Below are positions 61,301 to 64,000 of a stretch of 64,000 nt of DNA, piece by piece (the first letter of the stretch is position 1; each line of letters opens with the position of its first letter). Both the position numbers and the translations under genes were made by a program. Source of the DNA: Roseococcus sp. SYP-B2431 (GTDB lineage Bacteria > Pseudomonadota > Alphaproteobacteria > Acetobacterales > Acetobacteraceae). The notes under the pieces are model-generated. The model made no database searches, was not told the origin of the DNA, and saw only the letters and a list, made by a program, of their open reading frames with translations. The DNA lies in NCBI RefSeq assembly GCF_004336745.1, contig NZ_SJXD01000026.1, positions 124,001-188,000 on the forward strand, read 5' to 3'.

Positions 61301-61423
61301 GCGGGAATGAATGGGCGCCCCGCCGGAGTCGGACAAGGCCAGGGGCCGAATGGGTTGTGGAGAAGCCGATTGCCCTCAAAGCCGAGCGGCCGGAGTTGCG
61401 CCCGCCTTCCGAGGGGGAGAATG

Positions 61424-61824
61424 ATGCCGGGCGGCCTGTAAGCCGGGTTCTGTCTTGGCCCGAAAGCCATGGACGACCATTCCTCTGGGACCCGCGTCAC
61501 CGCGGGCCTCGCGCGGCCAACCCGGAGGACGGGGCGGAAATGCCCCTGCTTGCGCTGCCCTCCCTATTCGGCCTTGCTCCCGGTGGGGTTTGCCGTGCCG
61601 CCGCCATTGCTGGAAGCGCGGTGGGCTCTTACCCCACCGTTTCACCCTGACCGCCCGAGCCCCCGCCGAAGCAGGCACTGGAGCGGCGGTCTGTTCTCTG
61701 TGGCACTTTCCCTAGGCTTACGCCCGCCGGCCATTGGCCGGCACCGCATTTCCGTGGAGCCCGGACTTTCCTCCAGCCCCGCGATCGCTCGCAGGACCAG
61801 CGGCCGTCCAGCCGCCCGGCACCG
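61424..61824 (-). ncRNA. rnpB: RNase P RNA (catalytic RNA of ribonuclease P)
   Basis: About 400 nt, read on the reverse strand. Conserved stretches are present in the right order: GAGGAAAGTCCGGGCTCCAC (5' core, 61756-61775), the GGGTAAGAGCCCACCGC region, CAGAGGAATGGTCGTCC, and ACAGAACCCGGCTTACAGG before the 3' end. The ends pair to form stem P1 (GCCGGGCGGC with GCCGCCCGGC), which sets the boundaries to within a few bases. It matures tRNA 5' ends with the RnpA protein. It looks like the type A RNA of alphaproteobacteria. Confidence 0.95.
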
Positions 61825-61830
61825 GGTGCT

Positions 61831-61859
61831 TGTTGCGCAGACCCTTGCCGGCCGGTCAA
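61831..61859 (-). promoter_or_regulatory. Candidate rnpB promoter
   Basis: On the reverse strand, TTGACC (61859-61854) and 17 bp further GCAACA (61836-61831), with the predicted RNA 5' end about 7 nt after. The -35 is good and the -10 is poor. The spacing to the RNA 5' end supports it. Confidence 0.4.
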
Positions 61860-61999
61860 GCGCGTTTGTGTTGCCCGATTGCAACAGCACTCGAAAAGCC
61901 TGTCACGCCATGGAGGTAAGGTTTCAAGCCCGGAGCATAAGGCCCTGTCAAAAAACGATACTCCGCATCAAGGGCCGCCTGGGCATGAGTCGTTATCCC

Positions 62000-62028
62000 T
62001 TGATTACCCATATCCACCCAGATAAAAC
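62000..62028 (+). promoter_or_regulatory. Candidate mraZ promoter
   Basis: TTGATT (62000-62005) and TAAAAC (62023-62028) are separated by exactly 17 bp; each matches four of six consensus bases. Initiation near 62035 would give a leader of about 166 nt. The spacer contains two MraZ-type repeats, so repression by MraZ would be direct. Confidence 0.5.
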
Positions 62029-62040
62029 CGCCACAGCCCA
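62006..62040 (-). promoter_or_regulatory. MraZ-type binding repeats
   Basis: On the reverse strand, TGGGT at 62020-62016 and 62010-62006 and TGGGC at 62040-62036 lie in a 10-bp register (the position between, 62030-62026, is CGGTT). MraZ binds TGGGN repeats with 5-nt spacers ahead of its own gene in E. coli and B. subtilis; the orientation differs here. Confidence 0.55.
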
Positions 62041-62053
62041 ATACGGATGAGAC

Positions 62054-62128
62054 GCTCGGGGGGGCGAGCATCTGGAAAAGGGCTGGTCGGGCGAGCCGAC
62101 GGGGTTTCCGGGGGGGAACCTCGTCGGC
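62054..62128 (+). other. Structured mraZ leader with G-rich loops
   Basis: Two hairpins: GCTCG-GGGGGG-CGAGC (62054-62069), and a 12-bp stem between 62095-62106 (GCCGACGGGGTT) and 62117-62128 (AACCTCGTCGGC), with a loop of TCC and seven Gs. Their loops are both poly-G, which is odd. They lie 73-147 nt before the mraZ ATG. Confidence 0.5.
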
Positions 62129-62200
62129 CGCTGCTCCCGGCAGAGGAACCAAACTGACCGTCCCCCTTTGGCGCGTTCGAGAGGGGCATCCGACGGCACG

Positions 62201-62647
62201 ATGACCCAGTTCCGGGGCAAATTCATCAACGGGTTGGACAAGAAGGGCCGCTGCAGCGTGCCGGCCCTGTTCCGCACCCGCCTTGCCGGAGAGGGCCTCG
62301 TCCTGCGCCGTTCCACCCGCCATCCCTGCATCGAGGCCTGGCCCACTTCCGCCTTCGAGGCCGAGGTCAGCCCCAAGAGCCCGCTCGACGAACCGAGCGA
62401 GGATGATGAATTCAAGGCCTATGCCCTCTACTCCGACACGGTGGACGTCACGCCCGACCCCGATGGCCGCATGATCCTTCCCGCCGACCTCATCCAGTTC
62501 GCGAAGCTGAGCGACAGCGTGGCCTTCCTCGGCCGCATGGACTGCATCGAGCTCTGGGAACCCGCGGCCGCCGAGGCACAGATCGAGAAGGCCCGTCAGG
62601 CGCTGGCCGAGAAGGCGCGCGCCCGGGCCGCGGCGGGGAGCGCCTGA
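62201..62647 (+). CDS. mraZ: Division/cell wall cluster transcriptional regulator MraZ
   Basis: 148 residues from the ATG at 62201 ([28 protein letters not shown]). It has two AbrB/SpoVT-like swapped-hairpin halves, the second centred on [34 protein letters not shown]. MraZ represses the dcw operon by binding TGGGN repeats. The C-tail ([17 protein letters not shown]) is helical. It overlaps rsmH by 1 nt. In-frame upstream ATGs add no conserved residues. Confidence 0.95.
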
Positions 62648-63588
62648 TGGCCCATATCCCCGTCCTGCTCCAGGAGGTCCTGGAATACCTGGCGCCGCGC
62701 GCCGGCGAGAACATCCTCGACGGCACCTTCGGCGGCGGCGGCTATGCCCGCGCCATCCTTGAGGCCGCCCCCTGCACCGTCTGGGCCATGGACCGCGACC
62801 CCGAGGCGATCGCGCGCGGCGCGGCCCTGGCCGCCGCGTATCCCGGCCGCCTGCACCTCATCGAGGGCCGCTTCGGCGACATGCTCGCGCATCTCTCGGC
62901 CGCAGGCGTGTCCGCGCTGGGCGGGGTGGTGCTGGACCTCGGCGTCTCCAGCTTCCAGATCGACACGCCCGAGCGCGGCTTCTCCTTCCGCTTCGACGGT
63001 CCGCTCGACATGCGCATGGGCCGCGGCGGCCCGAGCGCGGCCGACCTCGTGAACACCCTTCCCGAGGCCGAGCTCGCCCATCTGATCTGGGAGCTCGGCG
63101 AGGAGCGGCATTCCCGCCGCGTTGCCCGCGCGATCGTGCGCGACCGCGCGGAGGCGCCCTTCGAGACCACGCTGCGCCTCGCCGAGACCATTCGCCGCGC
63201 CGTGCCGCGCGACCCGTCCGGCATCCATGGCGCGACCCGAAGCTTCCAGGCGCTGCGCATCCGCGTGAACGACGAGCTGGGCGAGATCGAGCGCGCGCTG
63301 GAACAGGCGCTCGGACTGCTGGCGCCCGGGGGCCGAATCGTTGTCGTATCATTTCACTCGTTGGAGGACCGGATCGTGAAGCGTGCCTTCCAGAAGGCCG
63401 CAGGCCGCACCCCTGGGGCGTCGCGGCACGACCCAGGCGCGCTGCTGGCGCCGCGCGCCGAGACGGAATTCGCCCTGCTCACGCCACGTTCCGTCCGTCC
63501 GGGCGCCACGGAGGCCGCGGAAAATCTGCGGTCCCGCTCCGCCCATCTCCGCGCCCTGCTCCGCAAGCCCGAAAGCCGCGCCGCATGA
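62647..63588 (+). CDS. rsmH: 16S rRNA (cytosine1402-N4)-methyltransferase
   Basis: 313 residues. The SAM site [16 protein letters not shown] (about residues 23-38), [18 protein letters not shown], and [29 protein letters not shown] are signature regions. It methylates C1402 of 16S rRNA near the P site. The ATG overlaps the mraZ stop by one base (TGATG), and its own stop overlaps ftsL by 4 nt. A normal member of the dcw cluster. Confidence 0.97.
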
Positions 63589-64000
63589 TCCATCCGCTGA
63601 CCCTCGTGACCTTCGCGGCTTTCCTCGGCTCCGGGCTCTACGTCTTCCAGACCAAGGAGGAGGTGGCGAAGCTGGACCGCGAACTGCGCGACGTCAGCCG
63701 CCAGATCGAGGGCGAGCGCTCCCGGACGCAGACGCTCTCGGCCGAATGGGCACGGCTGAACGACCAGGACCGGCTGCGCAGCATGGTGACGAGCCACCTG
63801 CGCGACATGCAGCCGATGGAGCCCTCGCAGTTCCAGCGGCTGGACGACGCGCAGCGCCGCATGCCGCAGGCCGTGGCCTTCGTGCCGGAAGCCACCGGCT
63901 TCCGGCGCCGCGCCGACGCGCCCTCCGCCCCGGGCGAGGTCCTGGTCTTCACCGCCGCGAGCATGCTGGCCGAGGCGGAGCCGCGCCGCGCCAGGCCGGC
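63585..64000 (+). CDS. ftsL: Cell division protein FtsL, N-terminal part
   Basis: Starts with ATG at 63585 and runs off the window end after about 138 codons. It begins with a short cytoplasmic end and a transmembrane helix ([17 protein letters not shown]), followed by a coiled coil ([34 protein letters not shown]), then [23 protein letters not shown]. This is the FtsL layout of the dcw cluster. The family is short and variable, so position after rsmH is the main support. FtsL works with FtsB and FtsQ at the septum. Confidence 0.85.

Follow-up and report, generated by a model that had tools for sequence, protein, structure and literature searches.

MraZ proteins as regulators of the dcw operon

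Few bacterial regulators are as widespread as MraZ, and autoregulation by this protein through phased TGGG/GTG repeats is established in other bacteria. Upstream of mraZ in Escherichia coli K-12, three TGGG boxes lie on the coding strand between positions -43 and -20 from the ATG, with no CCCA pair, and the 5' UTR is reported to be 38 nt long (PMC5089854). In the Burkholderia cenocepacia promoter PmraBc, the repeats are described as lying downstream of the -10 element and overlapping the transcription start site, and MraZ was shown to bind the fragment (PMC7761207). The MraZ boxes of Mollicutes, given as (AAAGTGKN3)3, are direct repeats with a 10-bp period and have been linked to autoregulation (PMC5282649, PMC8475190). 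Two RNA elements have also been described in dcw leaders. In Rhodobacter sphaeroides, the dcw leader contains UpsM, a terminated sRNA of 206 nt that undergoes RNase E processing, and a long mraZ leader with an intrinsic terminator was considered by Weber et al. to be exclusive to Rhodobacteraceae (PMC5089854). In Actinomycetales, the mraW RNA motif (RF01746) is reported to form a structured leader element of a dcw gene (PMC3890552, PMC2864571).

Here we analyzed the region upstream of mraZ in a 64,000-nt stretch, positions 124001-188000 of contig C26, of the genome of Roseococcus sp. SYP-B2431 (hereafter the window). Direct repeats with a TGGG/GTG core and a 10-bp period are present upstream of mraZ, and thus the box core, period, and position are common to the window and E. 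coli. However, the E. coli boxes are on the coding strand near the start site, whereas those of the window are on the template strand, within the spacer between the predicted -35 and -10 elements, and about 160-200 nt from the ATG. Coding-strand repeats near or downstream of the -10 element, which is the layout of E. coli and B. cenocepacia, were not found in the window. Judging from the descriptions in the reports cited above, PmraBc has phased repeats as here but downstream of its -10 element rather than in the spacer, and the boxes of Mollicutes share the direct-repeat 10-bp period but differ in sequence.

Gene content at the start of the dcw operon

The dcw operon in the window opens with mraZ (62201..62647, + strand, 148 aa), followed on the same strand by mraW/rsmH (62647..63588, identified by a profile match) and ftsL (63585..63998, NF049847), the latter truncated by the window end. 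An AGAGGGG sequence at 62180..62186 (+ strand) is the putative ribosome-binding site. The MraZ protein matched PF02381 with 71.7 bits (5e-20; cut-off 23) in two domain stretches within one reading frame, is intact by Pfam, and contains the conserved DKKGR motif. All six of its NCBIfam matches are MraZ models, each below its cut-off (best 114.7 of 162 for the MraZ equivalogs; 61.8 of 98.35 for TIGR00242). Its nearest relatives were found in Rubritepida (89% identity) and Roseococcus (86% identity), which places the window in the Acetobacteraceae within the Alphaproteobacteria. MraZ relatives with solved structures exist. The RNase P RNA gene (rnpB, 61423-61819, - strand, detected by an Rfam match) adjoins mraZ. 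In 17 of the 20 loci scanned, RNase P RNA is located upstream of mraZ; it shares the mraZ strand in all of these but L001 and L002, in which it is turned round as in the window.

A putative MraZ box array interlaced with the predicted promoter

On the + strand, a predicted -35 element, TTGATT (62000-62005), is followed by the 17-nt spacer ACCCATATCCACCCAGA (62006-62022) and a predicted -10 element, TAAAAC (62023-62028), and CCC(A) boxes occur in 10-bp register at 61997, 62007, 62017, and 62037. The first-pass annotation had described two TGGGT repeats with a 10-bp period filling the spacer, a third TGGG 20 bp further in the same register, and an orientation opposite to that of E. coli. All of these are present: predicted boxes 1 and 2 (TGGGT on the - strand, 62006..62010 and 62016..62020) read ACCCA on the + strand, predicted box 4 (TGGG on the - strand, 62037..62040) reads CCCA on the + strand and lies near the likely transcript start, and the E. 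coli boxes are indeed on the other strand. Two further positions of the array had been missed, namely a predicted partial box 0 (61997..61999, - strand), which is an in-register CCC on the + strand, and a degenerate box 3, whose position (62027) falls within the -10 element and reads ACC.

The two TGGGT repeats alone are weak evidence, as TGGGTn5TGGG occurs once in the 64-kb window against 0.29 expected. Genome-wide (4.7 Mb), the two-box pattern gave 63 forward and 65 reverse matches versus 31 and 27 for a reversed-pattern control, and two boxes alone are therefore uninformative. The three-box search gave 2 matches versus 1 for its control, which does not exceed the control level, and the one other place found overlaps an open reading frame. 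Of 5000 dinucleotide shuffles of 61820-62200, one equalled the five-position array score of 11, which was reached nowhere else in the window on either strand. A sigma-70 consensus scan of 61800-62300 detected no promoter, and hence the promoter call is based on conservation across relatives.

We also examined whether the array co-occurs with mraZ. Among 29 genomes searched in which mraZ was not detected, drawn from the class and phylum samples described below, 26 have mraW; L223 and L224, with partial mraW, were excluded. No array was detected within 400 nt before mraW in any of the 25 mraW loci scored (0/9 in Alphaproteobacteria and 0/16 in other taxa), bearing in mind that mraW may not head its operon in these genomes. 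The array therefore co-occurs with mraZ in this comparison.

Conservation of the array in Acetobacteraceae

The related set comprised 65 mraZ loci, mostly titled Acetobacteraceae or its genera, together with one Pelagibacteraceae locus and a few titled otherwise, and 450 nt before mraZ, or as much as the contig holds, were scanned in each. CCCAn6CCCA or CCCn7CCCn7CCC was found on the coding strand in all 65 loci as well as in the window; in L058, a TGGG pair is also present 413 nt upstream. Most often, the array reads TTTGACG-CCCATnnnnn-CCCATGnTAT-CCCATnnnnn-CCCA, in which two boxes follow the -35 element (TTGACG in most relatives), the third overlaps a TATCCC -10 element, and the fourth lies beyond it. 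A TTG-type -35 element with two spacer boxes is present in 55 of 66 loci of the Acetobacteraceae set, while one spacer box was found in 6/66 and none in 5/66. In these 55 arrays, CCC occupies boxes 0-4 in 17, 55, 55, 48, and 42 cases, respectively, the two spacer boxes having been used to select the arrays. In the window and its closest relatives, TAAAAC or TAGAAC replaces the third box, and the next box is retained. At a guess, the degenerate box 3, which leaves TAAAAC instead of the usual TATCCC, might affect promoter strength. Thus, the register, the reversed orientation, and the placement within the spacer first noticed in a single genome are kept in the family (65/65 with phased boxes) and, in modified form, across the class.

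Reversed orientation as the rule in Alphaproteobacteria

By searching with PF02381, mraZ was detected in 49 of 58 Alphaproteobacteria and in 39 of 60 genomes spread over the phylum. The alphaproteobacterial set includes the genome of the window itself (L080), whereas L133, with 49 nt upstream, was excluded from the count; L075, L140, and L107 (anchor absent) and L094 (anchor misplaced) were rescored before counting. At least two phased CCCA boxes were found in 47 of the 54 alphaproteobacterial loci with enough upstream DNA (7/54 lacked them by the strict test), and a phased TGGG array in none of the 54. Forward-oriented GTGG arrays with at least two phased boxes were present in 26 of 28 loci from other Pseudomonadota. 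Letter shuffles of the same upstream regions gave at least two boxes in about 0.5%. A -35 element with two spacer boxes was observed in 31 of 51 other alphaproteobacterial loci, with one box in 12/51 and none in 8/51, and in many loci of the class the -35 hexamer exactly occupies the 6-nt gap between boxes, e.g., CCCATTGACGCCCATATCGCCCCATGATATCCCA in L095.

These comparisons show that the reversed layout, embedded in the predicted promoter, is the rule in Alphaproteobacteria and not an oddity of the window genome. The predicted operator is a class-wide variant of the established MraZ operators, a generality that the first-pass annotation did not contain, and the finding is broader than what was stated there. 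A search confined to the open-access literature returned no description of an MraZ operator reversed in Alphaproteobacteria, and the motif may have been described earlier.

Nine of 27 loci outside the class (L110, L114, L122-L125, L127, L147, and L148) carry a reversed CCCA pair besides the forward array, about 185-260 nt upstream. This pair may mark a divergent target of MraZ or a site involved in looping. In L122, opposite-strand ORFs lie beyond the reversed pair; the idea that such a pair serves a divergent rRNA methyltransferase was dropped, as nothing in the ORF list of L122 points to it.

Possible mode of action and alternative explanations

Based on the sequence comparisons, we consider it very likely that 61997-62040 is an MraZ autoregulatory operator that heads the dcw operon and is interlaced with its core promoter. 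MraZ would recognise TGGG/GTGG boxes spaced by one helical turn; in the window, these are on the template strand, and two of them lie inside the spacer between the -35 and -10 elements. An MraZ oligomer on the array would cover both elements and exclude RNA polymerase, which would limit transcription of mraZ, mraW, ftsL, and the downstream dcw genes from a start at about 62034-62040. MraZ is thus a probable repressor of the dcw operon that would act by occluding its core promoter. The 'tight' autoregulation of the first-pass annotation is here an inference, like MraZ binding itself and the transcript start.

The centre of the -35 element is about half a helical turn away from the box centres, and simple competition with sigma region 4 is therefore not guaranteed. 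MraZ could instead bind the array without simply excluding the polymerase, with the two proteins on opposite faces of the DNA, and might trap, bend, or even stimulate the promoter, which would also suit the many alphaproteobacterial loci in which TTGACN fills the 6-nt gap between boxes. We regard this as unlikely, because the -10 box overlaps TATCCC in most family members (CCC in 48/55), where co-occupancy should block opening, and because MraZ reportedly acts as a repressor in both E. coli and Mycoplasma genitalium (PMC8475190).

It is also conceivable, if a little less likely again, that the array is a true MraZ operator while the promoter in use lies elsewhere, so that the repeats serve as an upstream or roadblock site. 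The negative result of the sigma-70 consensus scan and the imperfect -10 element TAAAAC speak for such an arrangement; however, throughout the family and the class, the geometry of TTGACG, 17-18 nt, and TATCCC keeps a fixed position relative to the boxes. It seems very improbable that another factor uses the repeats or that they are a side effect of promoter sequence: the two TGGGT repeats are by themselves only weakly surprising, but the box core, the period, and the co-occurrence with mraZ all argue for MraZ. An operator that acts by covering the core promoter is hence the reading that we prefer.

A conserved structured RNA in the mraZ leader

Among the closest mraZ loci, conservation of the leader is unusually high. 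In the window, it contains a predicted structured RNA at 62050..62138 (+ strand) with two hairpins capped by GGGG loops, for which a model (R1) of 85 positions and 20 pairs was built from 17 sequences. Hairpin 1 (62054..62065, + strand) has the form GCUC-GGGG-GGGC, with 99.1% of cells paired. Hairpin 2 (62090..62132, + strand) is a long stem with a bulged A (62094) and a GGGG loop (62110-62113); 99.8% of its cells are paired, and 10 of its 16 pairs have changes on both sides. As longer-range pairing replaces hairpin 1 in the window's own fold, this hairpin is less certain than hairpin 2. An alternative form of hairpin 1, GCUCG/CGAGC, was rejected since 90.8% of its cells are paired versus 99.1% for GCUC/GGGC.

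Of 200 Acetobacteraceae genomes, 42 carry R1, each as a single copy and together representing 19 of 102 genera, and mraZ is located 38-139 nt downstream in all 42 loci. In the order, 51 of 200 genomes matched, and among the matches listed all are Acetobacteraceae. In the sample of 190 genomes of the class, the only match is the genome of the window, and no homology with UpsM was found. Across 54 distinct R1 sequences, 99.6% of cells pair and both partners have changed in 12 of 20 pairs, in an alignment that was fitted to R1 and in which 17 of the 58 rows had been used to build the model; when the partner was shifted by 1-3 columns, pairing fell to at most 57%. A MAFFT alignment of 41 chosen leaders gave 18 pairs, 11 of them with compensatory changes. 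An uninterrupted stem of at least 12 pairs on the GGGG loop is present in 52 of the 54 sequences, and six members folded one by one gave structures of higher stability than those of shuffled sequences (z -2.9 to -3.3).

The paired cells include 203 G-U versus 1 A-C on the + strand, which indicates an RNA on the mraZ strand and led us to reject a DNA-level or minus-strand element. A small upstream ORF behind the conservation was likewise rejected, since the possible start codon is not constant and the stem of L178, L180, and L181 differs by 4 nt. With Rfam 15, the leader had no match above any gathering score (the best, with E 0.3, was far below its gathering score), and rnpB was the only hit in the whole window. 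As in the reported case of UpsM, a long RNA leader precedes mraZ in an alphaproteobacterium; however, UpsM is terminated, whereas a terminator consensus scan of 61800-62300 found no such site in the window, which belongs to another family. RF01746, as described, is likewise a structured leader element of a dcw gene, but the Rfam search found no homology with it. No report of the leader RNA was found in the open-access literature searched.

The leader RNA thus combines a conserved structure, compensatory changes, and a fixed position before one gene, and is probably cis-regulatory. While the structure is supported by covariation, its function as a second, post-transcriptional layer of control is probable. 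It is the more novel part of the locus compared with the operator and was absent from the first-pass annotation. A CCCCC run at 62162-62166 could pair with the AGAGGGG ribosome-binding site at 62180-62186, and C-runs recur in Roseococcus-type loci and not in Neoroseomonas; a translational switch formed by this run and the G-rich leader is possible.

Implications for dcw regulation

In the operators compared outside the class (the E. coli sequence, and B. cenocepacia as described in PMC7761207), the repeats are located at or downstream of the -10 element. An entire class with a reversed operator interlaced with its core promoter would offer a natural test of how the orientation and position of a ring-shaped repressor on DNA influence repression. 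The leader RNA shows tight conservation at the main division operon of one bacterial family, and its covariation opens the structure to direct testing. The chances seem to us evenly balanced that the dcw operon of Roseomonas-type Acetobacteraceae combines an ancestral alphaproteobacterial reversed MraZ operator with an undescribed RNA of two GGGG hairpins within roughly the first 100 nt of the transcript, which would be read by a dedicated protein, an sRNA, or a ligand and would set the expression of division and cell-wall genes after transcription has started.
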